From Arbacia lixula (taxonomy: Eukaryota > Echinodermata > Echinoidea > Arbacioida > Arbaciidae): a stretch of DNA of 64,000 nt. Positions 5,399-63,600 of the stretch are shown here, piece after piece (the first letter of the stretch is position 1; every line of letters starts with the position of its first letter). Under the pieces are notes generated by a model. That model made no database searches. It was not told the origin of the DNA and saw only the letters and a program-made list of their open reading frames with translations. Position numbers and translations under genes: made by a program. The stretch spans positions 1,890,025 to 1,954,024 of the forward strand of contig OZ022583.1 of the NCBI GenBank assembly GCA_963669155.1, read 5' to 3'.

Positions 5399-5441
5399 AT
5401 TGCGACGTTTCGACCGCTACTGCTAGTCTTCGTCAGGCAAT
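5399..5441 (-). ncRNA. Hammerhead ribozyme of the Penelope-like element
   Basis: Read on the minus strand: stem I AUUGC, core CUGACGA, a stem-II hairpin, core GAAA, then ACGU and the cleavage triplet GUC, then GCAAU closing stem I (5 perfect pairs). Stem II can pair GACU with GGUC and an inner GC with GC around an AGUA loop, leaving one extra A beside the core. Stem III is only the self-complementary ACGU, as in the minimal hammerheads known from Penelope-like elements, which are thought to work as dimers. The 5' half lies inside the last codons (LPDED) and stop codon of the reverse-transcriptase frame. Confidence 0.85.
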
Positions 5442-8014
5442 GTGGACAATAGTCGCTGCGCGCGTCTTTTATAGCGTAAGCTGCGTTCCGGAGGTGCCGG
5501 AACCGCCGCGCTGCAATTGGTCGGCGCACTCGACCAATCACTAGCCGCGGACGGTGCGACATCCGGGCGGGTAGCGGACGTCGGGGAAAGCCCCTCGGTT
5601 GGTGGCGGCGTCGCGGGCGGGCGAACACTGGCGGTAGCTGCACAATTGCTACTGTGGTTAGAAGCGGGCGTCGGAAGGCGGTCAAGCGGAGAGTTACGGG
5701 TGGTCGCGGGTGGCGCATGGCGGCGGATGGTCGGAAGCCATTCCTCGGGGATCTCAATGCCGTTATCCCTATTGATGTTATTCGGATGTAAGCGGATTTG
5801 GATAGCCTCTTTAACACGCCGTGTGTACCAGTGCTTATCCCGCGCTATGCAGCTTACCGCGTCCCAATTGGGAGGGTGATCTGCATTCCAAGCATGCTCT
5901 GCGACTGCCGAACTATCTATGCGCCGATGCTTGACATCTCTGCGGTGCTCTACCATTCTTTCGCTGACGGGTCTACCCGTTTCCCCGATGTACACCTTGT
6001 CACAAGTCCCGCATGGAATCTTGTAGACAACGCAATCGAGTCTGCCGGGTATCGCGGGGTCCTTAGGGCGCACTAGCTGCTTACGAATGGTAGTATCGGA
6101 CTTGAAAACGGCGCGTATGCTATGCTTCTCTAAACGTCGGCGAAGCTGGCGGGAAATAGAATCGACAAACGGTAGAACAACGGTAGACTTGTACTGCATA
6201 ATCTCTTTGTCGGTAGAGTTCTTCCTTTTAGTCACGCGGTTGAGGAAAGAGCGCGGGTAACCATTGGAAACTAGAGCGGAAGCAATGCGTTGTTTCTCAA
6301 TGGAAGTGCAGTGCGGCTTAGAAACAATGCGCGATGCCCTGTCATAAAGGCATTTAACGACCCCGCGTTTGACGGATTGGGGATGATGCGAATCGTAAGC
6401 TAGGTATTGGTCGGTGTGCGTGGGCTTTCTGTACACTGTGGTGGTGAGATGGCCCTCACTTTCGCGGTGCACCAGTGTATCGAGAAAGGCGATGCGGCTA
6501 TTGTCTTCCGTCTCCATAGTGAAACGGATAGACGGCTGCTGCGCGTTCACGTAATTCAAAAGGCAATCGGTAGCGGATCTGTCAGTTACAATGAAGGTAT
6601 CATCGACATAGCATTTCCAAATTCTCGGCTTGAATTCGGGCGGACAAGCGTTGAGCGCGTCTTCCTCAAAGGATTCCATGTACAAGTTAGCAATAACGGC
6701 AGAAACGGGGCTTCCCATGGCCGCGCCTTCTTGTTGTTCATAGAAGAGTCCGTCGTACATAAAGTAAGTGGACTTCAACACGAAACCAAGAAGTTCTGTG
6801 ACCTGGGCGGGAGAAAGGTCGGTACGGTCGGGCAAGGTAGCGTCGGCACTCAGGCGCTGAGAGGCGACATCGCATGCTGCTTCAACGGGTACATTGGTAA
6901 ACAGGGACACGACATCGAAAGAGACCATGACTTCGTGATCAAGTATGGTCTCGCTGCGCAAGAAATCGACAAAAGAAGCGGAGTTGCGGACTGCATAACG
7001 ATTATGACCAATAAGCGGCGAGAGTATGTCAGCTAAGAATTTGGAAGCGTTGCAGGCAAAAGAACTCACACACGAAACAATCGGGCGCAGCGGAACATCG
7101 GGCTTGTGGATTTTCGGTAATCCATAAATTCTAGGCGGTTGCTTCTGCGAGGGCCTAAGTACCCTGTAAGTCGCGTCATTGATATCACCATTCTTGTGGA
7201 AGCCGCGGAGAATGGCTGCTAGCTTGCGGGCGAGACAATCGGTAGGGTCCTTTCGTAAGGCGCGGTAAGGGCCTGAAGTAATAAGATCGGACATCTTAGC
7301 ACGGTAAGTGGAGGTATCTAATACCACGCTTGCGTGGCCTTTGTCAGCAGGCAAAATAGTAATGGCGCTATCTTCTTTCAGAGACTTCACAGCTTTGCGC
7401 ATGCCCGGAGTTACGTTAGATTTAGGCGGCTTGGCGGAGGCGAGGATCGCGTTGACCTCTCTGCGGACGGAGCCGACGGTTTCGGCATCGCGGCAACGGA
7501 CGGCGGATTCAATCTTGGCAATAATCTCGGTAGCAGGGATACGCTTCGGAGCAATAGCAAAGTTCAGTCCCTTGTTGAGCAGCGCAGTCTCGTCAGTAGT
7601 CAACACGCGCGACGATAAGTTGACTACTACTCGAGTATCGCAATCGGAAACGGTGCATACGGAGTTATACTTATCCTGCTCAGTGAGCTTGTCATACTTC
7701 CCTTGTTGGCGGGCTTTGCACTTCTCAAATTCGGCGCGGAAGGTATTACCGTTGTGCTGGAGGATCAAATCGCGATGTTCTTCGTTAAGGGTGGTCTTGA
7801 TTTCCGCGGTAGTGGATTCGACTTCGGAGTTGATGGAATTCGGGGTCATACGCGTCAGGTTGATTCTTTCTCGGAGAAAACGGCGGGAAGTATTAACTGC
7901 GATTTGTCGTGCTTTCTTGGTTGGAACTGGAGCGCGAATTTTTAGGTCTTTCGGGATGACGGAATTTGATATACACTCTATACACTCTATGCCATATGTC
8001 ACAAATATACCCAA
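5423..8014 (-). CDS. Penelope-like element polyprotein: reverse transcriptase plus GIY-YIG endonuclease
   Basis: An uninterrupted 863-codon frame. Visible blocks: ILPADKG (220-226), YGLPKIHKP (297-305), SFDVVSLFTNVPV (365-377, RT motif A), AAMGSPVSAVIANLYM (431-446, motif B), YVDD (469-472, catalytic motif C), FLDTLVHRE (510-518), YRKPTHTDQY (528-537), a CxxC zinc-knuckle-like linker (668-671), VYIGETGRP (674-682, GIY-YIG core) and a probable catalytic Glu in RRVKEAI. This domain order is the signature of Penelope-like retroelements, which prime reverse transcription at the nicked target. The tail after about residue 760 is Pro/Ser/Ala-rich without a known domain. The GC content is well above the surrounding DNA. 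With no frameshift or internal stop, the copy may be young. The start at 8014 is simply the first Met; such elements often have ill-defined starts. It lies between TCHP and GLTP in opposite orientation to GLTP. Confidence 0.93.
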   Translation of the reverse strand: MGIFVTYGIECIECISNSVIPKDLKIRAPVPTKKARQIAVNTSRRFLRERINLTRMTPNSINSEVESTTAEIKTTLNEEHRDLILQHNGNTFRAEFEKCKARQQGKYDKLTEQDKYNSVCTVSDCDTRVVVNLSSRVLTTDETALLNKGLNFAIAPKRIPATEIIAKIESAVRCRDAETVGSVRREVNAILASAKPPKSNVTPGMRKAVKSLKEDSAITILPADKGHASVVLDTSTYRAKMSDLITSGPYRALRKDPTDCLARKLAAILRGFHKNGDINDATYRVLRPSQKQPPRIYGLPKIHKPDVPLRPIVSCVSSFACNASKFLADILSPLIGHNRYAVRNSASFVDFLRSETILDHEVMVSFDVVSLFTNVPVEAACDVASQRLSADATLPDRTDLSPAQVTELLGFVLKSTYFMYDGLFYEQQEGAAMGSPVSAVIANLYMESFEEDALNACPPEFKPRIWKCYVDDTFIVTDRSATDCLLNYVNAQQPSIRFTMETEDNSRIAFLDTLVHRESEGHLTTTVYRKPTHTDQYLAYDSHHPQSVKRGVVKCLYDRASRIVSKPHCTSIEKQRIASALVSNGYPRSFLNRVTKRKNSTDKEIMQYKSTVVLPFVDSISRQLRRRLEKHSIRAVFKSDTTIRKQLVRPKDPAIPGRLDCVVYKIPCGTCDKVYIGETGRPVSERMVEHRRDVKHRRIDSSAVAEHAWNADHPPNWDAVSCIARDKHWYTRRVKEAIQIRLHPNNINRDNGIEIPEEWLPTIRRHAPPATTRNSPLDRLPTPASNHSSNCAATASVRPPATPPPTEGLSPTSATRPDVAPSAASDWSSAPTNCSAAVPAPPERSLRYKRRAQRLLSTLPDED

Positions 8015-8490
8015 TAATTTTGAGGTGGTTATTCATTGCTCTCGTACGACTTTCACTTGTACAATTAAGTTACACACTACTCATACTAACTAACTCTAAA
8101 CAGGCGCTGCTAGGTTACGCGACGCAAAACCGGTACCGCTATTGAAGGGCTGCCCTCCCCGGAGCTCGAGGGGAGTTCAGCGACACTGACAGGCCTCCGC
8201 ACTCCACGACCAGCAGAAATCCAAATCATTAACAGTCATTGATAATGTCCAAGTTTCTCCTCAATTTGAAAATAATAAAATGAATCATACAGAATGTGCA
8301 TACTTACCTCTTCACTAATGTTCATAAAAAATAAAATCCCGAATTGAATTGAAGCAAAACATGTCCATTATATAGATCTTTGTCACCAATCCTTCCCGAA
8401 CTCCGGAATTTCAAAAGCGAAAATGCAGTTCAGTAATAAAATAATAAGATTTGCTGCCCTCAGCGTTTGTAACACGCATAGCTCTTGAAG

Positions 8491-50200: not shown

Positions 50201-52231
50201 GATTTTGTCCATGCAACTCACAGCCTAGTACCTAGGCTAATTTCCATGTAGAACAATCAACAGACAAGGTACAATGGGACAAACACAGAAACACTGACCA
50301 ATGCCTGAGGTTTGTCAAAAAAAATGAGATATCCTGTAACCTGATTATCCTTAAATTAGTTGGTGCTGATATGAAAAAATGGGAAATCGTGAAAAAAGAA
50401 ATAGAGCAATTATCAAAACTTTAAAGGTAATAAAATGCATAGATGTATTGATTAAATATTAAAAACTAGGTATTTGGTATACCCAATAGCCGCATCACCA
50501 TGTCTTTGTGTGTTTTTTTGTGTTCAGTCCAAGAGCAAGCGTGCCAAGAACCTGCCCCTGGTGATGACCGCACCCCTCAACCTGGAGACCGGTACCTCCC
50601 TGGTCATCGGTGTGCCTCCTCTGCCTGAGCTAGAGCAGTCATCCAGGAAGTAAGTATGACTACAGTTGATCAGTCTGTGTGTGTGTTTGTTTGTTTGTGT
50701 CTGTCTGTCCCTTGTCATTGGTGTGCCTCCGCTGCCTGAGCTAGAGCAGTCATCGAGGAAGTAAGTATGACTACAGTTGATCCGTCTGTGTGTGTTTGTG
50801 TGTTTGTCTGTCCCATGTCATCGGTGTCTCCTCTGCCTGAACATATATTGATCATTAATTCAATAACAGTTCATTATGCGTCAAGAGACCTCCATGCTCT
50901 GCCAAAATAGGAGGCTTTTTGTTCTGAAGGAGACCACTAGTGGCCGTAAGCACAATTTTGCACCAAACTGCACCTCCTGCCAATCTGATGCCACGGATGT
51001 ACGCTTTAATACATCGTCGTATTTGCAGAGCAAAAGTTTGTTGACCCACATTCACCAAAAGACAGGCAGTAAGACAGCCGAGTCTGCCATTTTTCCAATC
51101 CATGTACCATGTTGGTAGCGTATTTTGTTGCTAGGCACTGATCTGTATACATCTCTGTGGTGCTAAGCTGTGATGTGGACCCAGAAGTTGGAAATTTGCT
51201 TGTCCGCTGCCACCGATAAGTGGTGCACGGTATAGTGAATCAACCGAAATAGAAGAATCATAGGAACAGATAAAACAAAGTAAAACAATAAGAAATTTAT
51301 GCCCATTTTAATGATATGAAGATTGTTATTAATGAAGGAAAAGAGACAACTTGGTCATAATGCTGTGATGCTGCCTTTGGATCACTTTTGAATTCAAGGA
51401 GTTGTAAACTAATCAGCATTAAACGTATTCTTTGTATTTACTTTCAGTTTCTTTGGACAGGCCTTTGAGCAGGCTGGAGCCAAGACGGGATCCAGGACTC
51501 TACATAATCACTTTGAATCTTCAAGTAAGAACAATCAACAGGCGTAATACTGATGGCATGTTCAATGCATGTCATTTGTTGTGTATATGTAGCCACAAAG
51601 TGATGGCACGCTACTCCGATGTTATTCAATTGTAATGTGATATTTGTGCGCCAGTGATCTGCTCATATCACAGAGAGCAGTGAAGCTTGTTGAAAATCAA
51701 GAAGTTTTTAAAGGGGGAAAGTTTTTTTTTTACAGGCAAGTATGAGCCTGAATGTGTGAGAGCAAATGGGGGGAAAAATGAGAGGTGGGGATAGGGGGGG
51801 GGGGGGGGGGCGTCAGTTTATACATGGTAGCATACATTTTGAGAAATATTATTGGATTCACCCATAATTTTTTTTTGTTATTCTCTGAAAAAAATTATAC
51901 GCCCATTGCATGCAGCCAGCGCTCTGCTCTGCATCCTAAAATGGCGGCAGTATCACCCCATAGCGTACTACACTTTTTTGTGTGCAAATACGCGAGAGTA
52001 ATCAGTCTTGCGTTTCTTCGCAGCGCTCTAAGGTCTTTGGATATAACTACAATAATAAGAAGATGTAGTTCAGCATGAAATGCACTCACACCTTTGTTTA
52101 AAATTGGGAAAGGCCATGACAAGATGCTATATGTTTGTGACATTTTCTTCTTTGTGTCTTTCATAGTTATGGAGCTGAAGACGGAGGACAGGAGTAAGTT
52201 CTTCGATGCCCTCATCTCTCTCTTGTCATAG
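38257..52231 (+). CDS. CDC45: CDC45, complete, 18 coding exons, 568 aa
   Basis: Exons: 38257-38307, 39705-39857, 40409-40546, 41402-41473, 42378-42449, 43449-43556, 43974-44035, 44716-44766, 45195-45314, 46673-46744, 47368-47526, 47678-47732, 48156-48206, 48752-48807, 49532-49754, 50528-50649, 51448-51524, 52167-52231. Every junction keeps phase and the total is 568 aa (human 566). CDC45 joins MCM2-7 and GINS to form the CMG replicative helicase in the nucleus; it is an inactive member of the DHH phosphoesterase fold. Recognisable blocks: [12 protein letters not shown] start, [16 protein letters not shown] (19-34), an acidic insert [14 protein letters not shown] (139-152) followed by a basic [51 protein letters not shown], and the C-terminus [19 protein letters not shown]. 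Intron 9 is U12-type. The introns hold LINE and MITE pieces. Convergent with HFM1. Confidence 0.97.
43091..43360 (+). mobile_element. LINE reverse-transcriptase fragment between 44-bp direct repeats, CDC45 intron 5
   Basis: The translation around 43130-43320 reads [20 protein letters not shown] followed by ADDT, the non-LTR RT catalytic FADD block, then [17 protein letters not shown]. It is flanked by near-identical 44-bp segments, TTTGTGAGATAC.GCCTAGG and onward, at 43091-43134 and 43317-43360. Only about 60 codons of RT remain. Confidence 0.75.
45315..46672 (+). other. U12-type (minor spliceosome) intron 9 of CDC45
   Basis: The donor is GTATCCTTTC, a perfect match to the U12-type 5' site, whereas all other introns start GTAAG-, GTGAG- or GTTCA-like. 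A branch site TTTCTTTAACC (A near 46657) lies 15 nt before the CAG acceptor at 46672. Splicing here joins GA|T and gives [14 protein letters not shown], aligned with the human SFEYDLRLVLYQHW as I remember it. Confidence 0.88.
45569..46240 (+). mobile_element. LINE 3' end (CR1/L2-like) inside the CDC45 U12 intron
   Basis: The frame 45569-46078 stays open and reads [91 protein letters not shown] then stop. This is the typical polyprotein C-terminus of CR1/L2-type LINEs. A 3' UTR ending near GGCGCGTTATAAATGTG and a TTATTATA tail follow. It is 5'-truncated (stop at 45566) and well preserved, so recent. Confidence 0.88.
46990..47366 (+). repeat. Long C/T-rich tract before CDC45 exon 11
   Basis: About 370 nt of imperfect CT/CCCT on the sense strand ending at the CCAG acceptor at 47367, an unusually long polypyrimidine tract. 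Ser/Pro/Leu frames in it are not genes. Confidence 0.85.
48486..48650. mobile_element. MITE family D, right half, in CDC45 intron 13
   Basis: Matches the right arm of 17184-17672: GAGCACCTCGCATGTGACG, CACAAAAT, CCTTTGACGGATTTTCGT, TTTCTTTCA, CAGGGTGAACTATCCCTTTAA. Confidence 0.8.
49785..49953. repeat. Dimer of an about 80-bp TTAACnCTTTGAGTGCC-like repeat
   Basis: Two adjacent similar segments: TCTTAACATGCCACCTGTGA..ATTTCACCAT and CACTTAACATGTCACTTGTGA..ATTTCACCAT, each ending GTGCTCAAAGGGTTAA or GCACGCAAAGAGTTAA. Fragments of the same motif appear near 9697 and 12419. Confidence 0.6.
49976..50235. mobile_element. Inverted-repeat element with a duplicated left arm, CDC45 intron 15
   Basis: CTAGGTACTAGGCTGTGAGG at 49976 is repeated 90 bp later at 50066 and is inverted at 50207-50235 (ending CAGCCTAGTACCTAG). 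The 90-bp duplicate is almost exact. Confidence 0.8.
50600..50843 (+). repeat. Tandem duplication of a CDC45 exon 3' edge with its donor
   Basis: 50600-50709 (last 50 nt of exon 16, its GTAAGT donor at 50650 and 60 nt of intron) is repeated at 50711-50813 with few changes, including a second GTAAGT at 50761, and a third short piece at 50815-50843. Confidence 0.9.
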
Positions 52232-55521: not shown

Positions 55522-58500
55522 CTAGAAGAGGTCCTGAAATATACTGCTGAATTCTGGGATGTCATCCTCCGCCCTAAGGAGAAAGACAGGAAAAAGGGAC
55601 GATGTGGGCTTTAGTGGATATTTATTGCATATAATAGGTCATCAGTGACATGGAATACTCAATGCACCTGAGTTCTAAAAAGGTGATGAATACACCATTT
55701 TATTTTGCTGTTATTGTGACTGTAATCAATGAGAATCAAGATATTTAATACGATTATGTAATACACTCACCTTGGGGACTTTGTTCCAAAGAAGTTGTTG
55801 GCTGAGATCCTGGGAATACGTCTGGCAATAGGCCCTTGTTTCTATGAAGACAAATGAAGTGAAAATAAGAAGATGAATTCACAAACCTGGACCCTGTTGC
55901 ATAAAACTTTTCATTCATGGTAACTCTCCCATTAATGGTAACACCACTCAACAACCAATCACAAGGTTTCCACAGCAGTTGCCATTGGAAGCAAAGTTTC
56001 CATCGATGGTAAGTGAGAAGTGTTCAAACCACTTTTCAAACAAGCGTGTCAAGTCAGATAAAAATCTTATGAATGGCAGTCATAAACTTGATCAGAGTTT
56101 CAAAACAGTGTTCCTCTAGAATAAGTGTTTCTGAGATATAATTAACGCCACAGCAATCTCAAACACTGCTTAGATAACGTCACAAAATGTTGCACTGAAT
56201 ACACGCACTGTTTGGAATTTTGATGTGACAAACGGCACCAAATGAGCTGCACAAACATGCTCAGAGAAAAATTTTTATAAACGCTTTCCAAAAAAACACT
56301 GACTTTCAGTACGCAAAATCGCAACCTCAGTCATACCTACCCTCTGTAAGTAGTTTCTTTCAACAGAGTCCAGGCAGGTAATGAGGGATAGTTCATCTGG
56401 GCTGGCACTGCTGGTCTTGGGTGCTCCACCAGGATCAGTGGATGGGGTTGGCTGCCTAGGGCCTCGGGTCATTAAGGTGGTTCCATACATCGGCTGACAG
56501 TGCTGGCTTGGTTGGCGGCTGAGTGGGAGAGAGTGGTCAAATTGGCGTTGCTGGCCCAAATTCTCCATGTACTATAAAGTATGATCATCTTTACGAGAAT
56601 CAATCTCTTCAGTGACACTGCATGAAAATGCTGGGTCCTAATGGTGCTTCTGTACATTGGCTTTGAGTGCTGGCTGGGTCGGCAGCTGAGTGGGAGAGTG
56701 GTCAGGATATACGTTTAGTCAATGACATATCTTTGTGCTTCTTTTGGTAGCAGGTGTTCATAAAGACTCTTTTCAATTTGATTTCAATATAATGAATCAT
56801 TTCATTTTTTCCCCATGGTAACACAAGGAGTCTAAGCCAAGGATGCATTTTCCAGGCAGAAGTCTGAATTTAGATTCTAGGGTGTGGAATTTTAACCATA
56901 ATTCAGCTCTAATGTATGTGTGATTGGACTCAGTTTTCATGATTTTCTGGACCACAGATATACACATGCATGTACAAAGGCATACCTGACTCCTGATTGC
57001 ACAGTATCAGGCAGCATTCTCCCCAGGGGTTTGTTCCAGACCCCACTCAGCTGAGGCAGGGGTAGACCACTCTGCCTCCCCATGGACCAGGGAGCTCCTG
57101 GTCCTAGGTTGCTGGTCTTAGGCAGTGCCGCTGTCCCTGGTTGGTGGAATGGGGAGGGGGATGAGGGCTTGGGTGTGCTGCACAGAGCATGGCCTGGTGG
57201 TGGGAGAGGTATGCCCTGCCCTCTGGTGCTCTGCCTCCCCATTGACCAGGGATCTTTTGGTCCTGGGTTGCTGGTCTTAGGCAGTGTGCCTGTCCCTAGT
57301 TGATGGGCGGAGGAGGGTGCTGAAAGCTTAGGCGTGCTGCACTGGGCTGGGTCTGGTGGTGGAGGGAGAGGTAAACGCTGCTCTCTGGTGTGCGATGCGG
57401 TGCTGCTGCGCTCCAAAGCCGGCTGGGAGTGATGTATGCTTGATGACAATGTGATATCTCTTTGAGGCTGGGATGCTGTGGAGAAATCCAGGGAAGGGAC
57501 AGACTGGTCAAGTGGTGGGCGTGGCGCCCTCATGGGAAGACCAGACCACAGATAGCCAGACGATGCTGTAGGAGATGGCGTGGAGTCATGATGACCACTG
57601 CTCATATAAGAAGTAGACAGGTGATCCGAAGGCTGAAACGCTGAAGATGGCCTTGAGTCACGCTGACCACTGCTCCCATAGGATTTAGACAGGCGATCCT
57701 GAGGCTGAGCTCTACCCTGCACATTAAGAGAGGATTTGGCTGATTCGTCCCTGCAATCATCCGTCTCATAAAGCAGGCTTTCCCCCAGGTTGAAGCAGGG
57801 AAGATCATCCGCTTCCTCACCTAATCCCAGCGACACTTTAGGAAGCTCTGTGAGGGTATTAAAGATGTATAGATATCAAAACCAATACAGATATCACTTG
57901 ATGCATCTTAACATAGATATCACTTATTGATGATCTAAATTATTCCAAGCAGAAAAATAATTATGTAGGCCAATTTATAATAGTCTTTTTTATGTGAGTA
58001 TCAGAAACTTAAATAAAGATCCCCTACCAGTCCTATAATCCAACATAATTCTATTGATTTGCATACATGTGTGTTATATGTATCCTATATGTTTTAAACT
58101 AAAAATTGGCACAAGTACTTTCTCCGACTAGACGATTATGTAACGTATTGAAAACAGGTCAGTGATTATACTCCCGAAGCACACTCCAGACAAAAGGATA
58201 TGAAGATCAATCCATTTCTGAAGCGGCACATCAATAAACATATACAAGATGAACATAAATATTTTGTGGCAATCTTAAATGCCAACTAAACATAAATAAA
58301 TTGCATACATTCTAAACTCTAAACTATGAAAGAAATTTGCAGCCACCAAGACTACTAGTAACATACCCTTATCCAGGTCACATCCCTCCTCCTCATACTG
58401 CTGCAGGTCAAAGTCGGATAGCTCCCTCTCCCTCTGCTGTCTGTAGAAGTCTAGATGCTCCCAGCCAGATGACTCCAGAGTGTGGTGTGCTGCTTGCTGA

Positions 58501-60644: not shown

Positions 60645-63600
60645 CCCTCTCCTATGCTTTTGAGAACTGACCATAGTCCTGGCTGATGAGATTGATGCTG
60701 AGGTCTTCCCCCTTCACAGCCCGCTTTACCTCAACCTTCCTCATCCAGATCCCCGACTGGAGCAACTGACTATCCCTGCAGGGAACAATGGAGAAGAGTA
60801 TGGGTTCTACCCTCTCTGTACCAACCCATGAGACTCCCATTTCAATTACAACACACCAATGGTAATGAGAGGATTAAAACCTATTCTGACAAAGGAACAT
60901 AGACCACTTTCTCCTTTTTAAGTGTGAGAATATCAACAGACCACTGTGGACGAGTTCAGAATGCTCTTCCAAAATAAGTGCTGTAGTGCATGAAAGAATA
61001 CAGACATAGTCCTTTGAAGGTTTGAACTTATCGTGAATGCTTGGTTGGGTAGGTATAGAATAGACTGATTATATTTTGGTGCAAATCTGTCAGGAGTCAA
61101 ACAGTCAAGGTTCATTCACACCGAAACGAAGTGATGACCTTGTCCATCAAACTATTTGCAATCCCATGAAACACACATACAGGGGATGGCATGCTCCTTT
61201 AGTTTATGCTTGGAAATGTTTCACCAATATGTGCATTATGATATGCACAATTTAATGCACAACTGATGACCTGTTCTTTGGTCAAATCAGATTCTTAATC
61301 ATTTCAATTCCTATCAGCTGCAGTTGAAATCTGATCATTGTATATTCAAATATAAATACAGAGTTAATCATTTGTAAAATTTGATCATGATTGTATGATA
61401 ATGATTTATATTAAAACAGGAACAAATTGGGATCTCTCATTTAGCACAAAAGGTCTCCAGTCATGCGTAAGGCTGTGCACATCTTGGTGAAACATGGCCT
61501 AGATGTCTTGCTTTTAGCTACTACCGAGTTCTGCTTACAGGATTCTCTGTTTGTAGACCACTCTGTTATCTGCATCTCCAAGCAGCAGGATGCTCATGTG
61601 ATTCGGTCTGGTGGTCTGTTTCTCTGCAATCCTCTCATGGTTAAGCAGACTCACTGTCAGGGTCAGCTCTGCTCTCATTGAGCTGTACCGTGGAACCTGG
61701 GTGGATCAAGGAAAGAGCTCAAGGTAGTGAATTCATTCTTTCTCTGTTTCTCTGCAAGCCTCTCATGGTTTAGCAGACTCACTGTCAGGGTCAGCTCTGC
61801 TCTCATTGAGCTGTACCTTGGAACCTGGGTGGATCAAGGAAAGAGCTCAAGGTAGTGAATTCATTCTTTCTCTATTTCTCTGCAAGCCTCTCATGGCTTA
61901 GCAGACTTACTGTCAGGGTTAGCTCTGCTCTCACTGGGCTGTACCGTGGAACCTGGGTGGATCAAGGAAAGAGCTCAAGGTAGTGAATTCATTCTTTCTC
62001 TATTTCTCTGCAACCCTCTCATGGTTTAGTAGACTCACTGTCAGGGTCAGCTCTGCTCTCACTGGGCTGTACCGTGGAACCTGGGTGGATCAAGGAAAGA
62101 GCTCAAGGTAGTGAATTCATTCTTTCTCTATTTCTCTGCAACCCTCTCATGGTTTAGCAGACTCACTGTCAGGGTCAGCTCTGCTCTCACTGGGCTGTAC
62201 CGTGGAACCTGGGTGGATCAAGGAAAGAGCTCAAGGTAGTGAATTCATTCTTTCTCTGTTTCTCTGCAACCCTCTCATGGTTTAGCAGACTCACTGTCAG
62301 GGTCAGCTCTGCTCTCATTGGGCTGTACCGTGGAACCTGGGTGGATCAAGGGAAGAGCTCAAGGTAGTGAATTCATTCTTTCTCTGTTTCTCTGCAACCC
62401 TCTCATGGTTTAGCAGACTCACTGTAAGGGTCAGCTCTGCTCTTATTGGGCTGTACCGTGGAACCTGGGTGGATCAAGGAAAGAGCTCAAGGTAGTGAAT
62501 TCATTCTTTCTCTGTTTCTCTGCAACCCTCTCATGGTTTAGCAGACTCACTGTCAGGGTCAGCTCTGCTCTTATTGGGCTGTACCGTGGAACCTGGGTGG
62601 ATCAAGGAAAGAGCTCAAGCTAGTGAATTCATTCTTTCTCTGTTTCTCTGCAACCCTCTCATGGTTTAGCAGACTCACTGTAAGGGTCAGCTCTGCTCTT
62701 ATTGGGCTGTACCGTGGAACCTGGGTGGATCAAGGAAAGAGCTCAAGGTAGTGAATTCATTCTTTCTCTGTTTCTCTGCAACCCTCTCATGGTTAAGCAG
62801 ACTCATTGTCAGGGTCAGCTCTGCCCTCATTGGGCTGTACTGTGGAACCTGGGTGGATCAAGGAAAGAGCTCAAGGTAGTGAATTCATTCTTTCTCTGTT
62901 TCTCTGCAACCCTCTTATGGTTTAGCAGACTGATTGTCAGGGTCAGCTCTGCTCTCTGTACAATGGTTTATGGTTATTTCATTTATTTATTTTCCACTCA
63001 TAGAAAACCAATAGACAAACATAAACTATGTATCAATATATTTTAAAACAAATTGGTAGAACGTTGATTCTTCCTCTCATTCTTTCTAACGGCTCTGTAA
63101 AGTTTTATTGACCATGATTGCTGGTTTTAACATTCTACATCCCAAGTGGATGACATGGAGGAGCTCACGGTCATCTCCATACTAAGTCATATCTTCTTGC
63201 CTTTGAAATAATGAACTTTAAAATTATGTGTAACTTTCTTATTCCTTTTTTGTTTCCATGGTCCGTAAAATTTACTGATATGCTTCACACTTTGGTTTTA
63301 TGCAACTGACTTTTTTGTGAATGAATGAATGCACGAATGGTTGTTGTCCACAATAATCACAACTACCACAAATTCATGACCACAATGTTTTGACAGACTT
63401 CTATGGGATCATAATCATTCTCTACCCGGCCTTCATTCTATCTTTCTTTACCTGTTCAATGGAGACATCATATTTGGGGAGATGGGCCACTGCCTCAACG
63501 ATCTGGTTCCCAAAAGGTGGATGTCTGTTGACAATCTGGATAAGATAAATAACATACCATAACATAACAGTATGTGAGCTTATGTGAGAAATGATGCAAA

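Follow-up and report, generated by a model that had tools for sequence, protein, structure and literature searches.

Minisatellite-like duplications of intron/exon borders, called mirages, have been described in amphioxus (PMC3087553, PMC3902484), and the cases named in the second of these reports are Adh, TnC, globin and PGBD5 (PMC3902484). According to the first, amphioxus mirages vary in length, the units of the globin BflGb6 mirage measure 150-160 bp, and RT-PCR suggested regular splicing (PMC3087553). A related event is reported for potato RdRp, where an intron was gained through duplication of an intron end together with the following exon start, the new donor being recruited from the exon (PMC4974935). 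Here, we analyse a 128-bp tandem array at an acceptor-side border of HFM1 in an echinoderm genome and conclude that it is very probably a tolerated minisatellite of the mirage kind, straddling the border between an intron and an exon.

Positions follow the numbering of the window, the 64,000-nt stretch that was analysed (C8:1890025-1954024 of a 607-Mb genome in 590 contigs), unless they carry the prefix C8 or a locus name. Coordinates of the features are collected in Table 1. The genome is assigned to an echinoderm. Two tektin exons match chains of PDB 8snb, a sea-urchin doublet (PMC10973386), with 213.5 and 261.5 bits, compared to 138.3 and 143.6 bits, respectively, for the next best chains. 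For a third tektin exon the best match is vertebrate tektin-3 (139.9 bits, versus 103.8 for 8snb), which is compatible with the assignment if 8snb contains no chain of that paralogue. In the mitochondrial-type COX1 on contig C590, both AAA codons correspond to asparagine in the best-matching COX1 chain and 6/9 ATA codons to isoleucine (two of the others to leucine and one to valine), in agreement with NCBI code 9 of echinoderms and flatworms. A fish host and an amphioxus host were considered and rejected on these grounds; the GFP family gave no match, but its control gave none either, so that this result favours neither side.

Tandem Repeats Finder reports the array with a period of 128, 10.5 copies, 97% matches and a score of 2467; its borders lie within a base of those (61616-62955) in the original prediction. 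As predicted, the array is anchored on the exon edge. Of the 128 nt in each unit, 46 come from the end of the intron and 82 from the beginning of the 158-nt exon. These 82 nt amount to 27 codons plus one base, and in the genuine exon they form part of the last array copy. As had been claimed, nine full copies of CCACCCAG/G (the slash marks the splice border) precede the genuine acceptor: the motif occurs ten times in exact 128-base steps, the first exon base lying at 62848, 62720, 62592, 62464, 62336, 62208, 62080, 61952 and 61824 for the nine decoys and at 61696 for the genuine site. The 5′-most, partial unit is fused to unique intron whose end reads TTGTACAG. Compared pairwise, array units show 0-10 differences; two are identical and most carry distinct variants. 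Blocks of units (2-4, 6-8 and 9-10) have some variants in common, a pattern that homogenisation between neighbouring units would produce. A search of this one assembly gave, among the best candidates listed, matches at the HFM1 locus alone. The observation of the array is confirmed.

Table 1. Features of the HFM1 array, its flanking exons and other duplicated exon edges
Feature	Position	Strand	Basis or detail
128-bp tandem array across an HFM1 intron/exon border	61615..62956	-	Tandem Repeats Finder, unit alignment
Nine full decoy units, AG intact in 9/9	61743..62894	-	unit alignment
Partial unit at 5′ end, exon-derived only, begins mid-exon (AGAGCAGAGC)	62895..62956	-	sequence
Genuine HFM1 exon, 158 nt, within Sec63-domain match, donor CCT/GTAAGC	61539..61696	-	exon reading, profile match
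Upstream HFM1 exon of 84 nt, in phase 0 at both ends, donor CAG/GTAAAG	63452..63535	-	exon reading
Example of putative 42-nt in-frame cassette (VPRYSSMRAELTLT), decoy acceptor to ACA/GTGAGT	61783..61824	-	unit alignment
Second large HFM1 array, donor side, exon C8:1957491-1957400	C8:1956478-1957447 (L006 2579-3548)		period 114, 8.5 copies
HFM1 exon 25, older acceptor duplicate upstream at 56685 (CACTCAG/C in both)	56341..56518	-	self-comparison and reading
Duplicated exon end, donor AGGAA/GTAAGTATG, 111 bp x 1.9	50597..50807	+	Tandem Repeats Finder, exon by eye

Exons of the host gene were read by eye, with the help of the reading frame and of similarity to HFM1, and then checked by script. 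Picked partly by frame in this way, 23 exons have AG and GT borders throughout and join as one open frame; exons further 5′ lie outside the reconstruction, and two more downstream exons (24 and 25) are readable in the same frame. The first 854 residues of the product match DEAD, Helicase_C, an SNRNP200-type winged helix and Sec63 (the last at residues 512-821), and ASCC3 and Brr2 are the closest solved structures. The gene name HFM1 was given from the single helicase cassette and from a general likeness to human HFM1 rather than from a direct comparison. The junction from the upstream exon to 61696 had been drawn correctly, as the upstream exon ends in phase 0. The 23 exons in one frame, together with the DEAD, Helicase_C, winged-helix and Sec63 matches, suggest that the gene has been kept despite the array. 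HFM1 thus looks functional, which requires the junction 63452-61696, and we infer the use of acceptor 61696 solely from the reading frame. Within an HFM1 coding exon, tandem duplications were also observed at 57070-57390 (period 159) and 57573-57708 (period 72), both periods being multiples of three, and a tRNA-like, SINE-looking stretch was noticed by eye on the minus strand of an HFM1 intron (L007 4060-4200).

The decoy acceptors closely resemble the genuine one. From -20 to +3, eight of the nine are identical to it and the decoy at 62336 carries a single change, while the border stretch from -12 to +1 is unchanged in all nine (0/117 positions). The genuine acceptor itself has the top score among the 23 HFM1 acceptors, as judged with a small matrix built from the gene's own sites. 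That sites presumed to be skipped should match the genuine one counts against the reading as a tolerated repeat.

It had been proposed that splicing to any decoy would lead to a premature stop, through a TGA in the next unit. Reading on as far as the genuine donor does bring up a stop in 9/9 cases, 78 or 147 nt past the acceptor. The position and identity of the stop were only partly right: in units 6-8 it is a TAG within the same unit, and in the others a TAA or TGA in the next one. The generality of the claim also has to be restricted. In eight of the nine decoys, the acceptor is followed at a distance of exactly 42 nt by an in-phase, donor-like ACA/GTRAGT (ACA/GTGAGT or ACA/GTAAGT), and the next acceptor lies 86 nt beyond this site; the decoy unit at 62848 has ATGAGT at this place. 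The frame of the 42-nt segment is open in all nine. With a matrix built from the other 22 HFM1 donors, small and from one gene, the two donor-like forms score 6.29 and 7.48, respectively, compared to 7.65 for the genuine donor. An in-frame cassette would therefore be a possible outcome beside the premature stop.

We estimated how often local duplications cross exon edges on 70 exon loci (20 Sec63, 20 tektin and 30 kinesin), from families picked for convenience and restricted, for Sec63 and kinesin, to matches with cut-out loci. A local duplication crosses 8/140 edges, with 1/40 in the Sec63, 1/40 in the tektin and 6/60 in the kinesin family, one of the eight (L042) being a short weak match. 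Arrays of at least three copies were confirmed for four of them (L016, L055, L065 and L066). In L066 (831-1565), the start of a kinesin P-loop exon (FAYGQTGAGKT) and its acceptor are present in 6.9 copies with a period of 105; the other arrays lie at 610-1548 in L016, a Sec63-family gene, and at 1225-1576 in L065 and 1219-1580 in L055, both on kinesin-family exons. In the same 70 loci, under a slightly different overlap rule, duplications cover 85/840 flank positions located 200-1200 bases away, or 9.8% on a dense grid. The difference between edges and flanks is -4.1 points (bootstrap 95% interval -8.0 to -0.05). Exon edges are thus not targeted and carry duplications somewhat more rarely than the flanks. 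Such a rate would be obtained in a minisatellite-rich genome, from which some of the arrays that damage exons may have been lost.

HFM1 carries duplications of this type at four further edges, which, like the donor-like sites in the decoys and the echinoderm host, had gone unnoticed in the original prediction. Four of its 46 scored edges, the present array included, lie inside local duplications, and the acceptor of exon 25 brings the number to five; since exons 24 and 25 entered the count only once the exon 25 duplication was known, 5/50 is biased slightly upwards. In the donor-side array (Table 1), the 114-bp unit comprises the exon end and a donor GTGAGT, with eight decoy donors after the genuine one. 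Older edge duplications are found at the donor C8:1964328 (74%) and the acceptor C8:1955590 (82.5%). A special enrichment of mirages in HFM1 was considered and rejected (Fisher P 0.33-0.49), the gene being no outlier. The idea of a special device of this gene is consequently not sustained: duplications also occur at 8/140 other edges and at five edges of HFM1, at a rate no higher than that of the flanks. Elsewhere in the window, the gene at 50456-50650, whose exon end is duplicated, gave a single weak and irrelevant NCBIfam match, and a reverse transcriptase match was obtained for an open frame of 869 codons at 5423-8032.

To compare splice motifs, six arrays were aligned by unit, namely the acceptor and donor arrays of HFM1, L066, L055, L065 and L016; this set leaves aside smaller or older duplications (L042, L050, L060, L076 and three in HFM1). 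Of the 35 decoys, 34 have an intact AG or GT, for a summed per-array expectation of about 31.5. Decoy splice motifs are off consensus at 8/381 positions, compared to 145/3076 elsewhere in the units, and a permutation with random windows of the same size gave a count as low as this in 4.2% of 20,000 draws (P 0.042). L055 is an exception, the motif being its more diverged part (3/26). In these six arrays the decoys show no visible sign of selection to decay, and their better-kept splice motifs weakly hint at conservation, which counts against the reading as a tolerated repeat. In the HFM1 acceptor array, variable columns are fewer in the intronic part (2/46) than in the exonic part (15/82; two-sided binomial P 0.042). 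A general rule that the intronic part of decoys is better kept was rejected with the six arrays taken together (78/297 intronic, 60/355 exonic), although in L065 and the HFM1 donor array the intronic count is raised by end units that extend into unique DNA; among the other five arrays, L016 alone shares the pattern (14/72 intronic, 20/49 exonic).

We regard a tolerated repeat as likelier than a designed switch, since duplications are present at several percent of edges and the array matches the amphioxus mirages. The unit happens to straddle the border, and its duplication carried the acceptor and the beginning of the exon with it. The array may have started from the copying of an exon segment into the end of the intron, perhaps via a short shared sequence, as suggested by the 5′-most copy, which starts mid-exon. 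Growth and homogenisation by unequal exchange or slippage would then have followed. The spliceosome would mainly join 63452 to 61696, the decoys leaving with the intron; site 61696 may be favoured as the sole acceptor that gives a short exon to the genuine donor (158 nt, versus 286-1310 nt from the decoys).

The near-perfect decoy acceptors and the stops at 78 or 147 nt in 9/9 readings to the genuine donor would also suit a regulatory role, in which transcripts using a decoy hit a stop and are destroyed and the number of units tunes the amount of HFM1. Such duplications are nevertheless widespread and show no enrichment at exon edges, the logic is inapplicable to the donor-side array of the same gene, and amphioxus mirages apparently left regular splicing undisturbed (PMC3087553); we consider this role very unlikely. 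Also unlikely, in our estimate, is that each unit would serve as a 42-nt in-frame exon, from decoy acceptor to ACA/GTGAGT, followed by an 86-nt intron, which would add 14-residue VPRYSPxRAELTLT repeats without frame shift and amount to repeated intron gain by tandem duplication. Besides the frame open in all nine decoys, the donor-like site present in eight and its scores against the genuine donor, this possibility is consistent with ACA/GTAAGC ending another HFM1 exon, with two of the 23 HFM1 exons measuring 47 nt and with the precedent of intron gain in potato RdRp (PMC4974935). It is opposed by the length of the 86-nt intron, unusual in a gene whose shortest intron among 22 is 274 nt, by the rank of the common form ACA/GTGAGT, 19th against the 23 HFM1 donors, and by the insertion of the repeats inside the Sec63 domain.

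An assembly in which copies were collapsed or expanded could mimic part of these observations, as near-identical repeats can have a wrong unit number in assemblies and one amphioxus mirage was apparently misassembled in the draft genome (PMC3087553). Most units of the HFM1 array, however, carry distinct variants, and the array occupies just 1.3 kb of a 28.4-Mb contig and fits within one long read, which makes an artefact most unlikely.

With this finding, the exon-edge mirage minisatellites described in amphioxus are also seen in an echinoderm, at a rough rate of 8/140 sampled edges. If this rate holds, the genome would be a natural experiment in which many near-identical splice sites compete in a fixed order. 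It could be used to test which of several equal acceptors or donors the spliceosome chooses, and to measure the frequency with which a tandem duplication gives rise to a new intron or exon. There is also a slim chance that the array acts as a ladder of ready-made in-frame exons, a reading that fits the weak sign of better-kept decoy splice motifs (P 0.042); a meiotic helicase could then gain or lose 14-residue repeats by changes in repeat number. If that were true, the mirages of echinoderms and amphioxus would provide deuterostomes with a permanent supply of new introns and exons.

In the open-access literature searched for mirages, echinoderms or sea stars, and exon-edge repeats, no earlier report of an echinoderm mirage was found. 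Within this literature, the phylum, the rate in an exon sample and the presence of several mirages in one gene seem to be new. Poison exons, for their part, arise from alternative splicing that introduces premature stops and are linked to nonsense-mediated decay. The HFM1 decoys are like them in that inclusion, read to the genuine donor, would give a premature stop in 9/9 cases, and unlike them in that the feature is a local repeat, known from the sequence of one genome. What the array shares with potato RdRp is the duplication of an intron end together with the following exon start, the exon part holding a donor-like site (8/9 decoys); in HFM1, by contrast, the duplication is repeated nine times and the new intron is only potential. 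The closest counterparts remain the amphioxus mirages (Adh3, the globins BflGb6 and BflGb9, TnC and PGBD5), with tandem units across an acceptor- or donor-side border. The host group, here echinoderm rather than cephalochordate, is taken as the place of discovery of mirages and not as a defining feature. The HFM1 array differs from them further by its ten copies, by the occurrence of several mirages in one gene and by being known from sequence alone. In common with them, its unit spans the border and is of similar length (128 bp, compared to 150-160 bp in BflGb6), the splice signals are copied in many units, with AG present in 9/9 decoys, and the genuine border is kept, here as the last of the series in a gene that looks intact.
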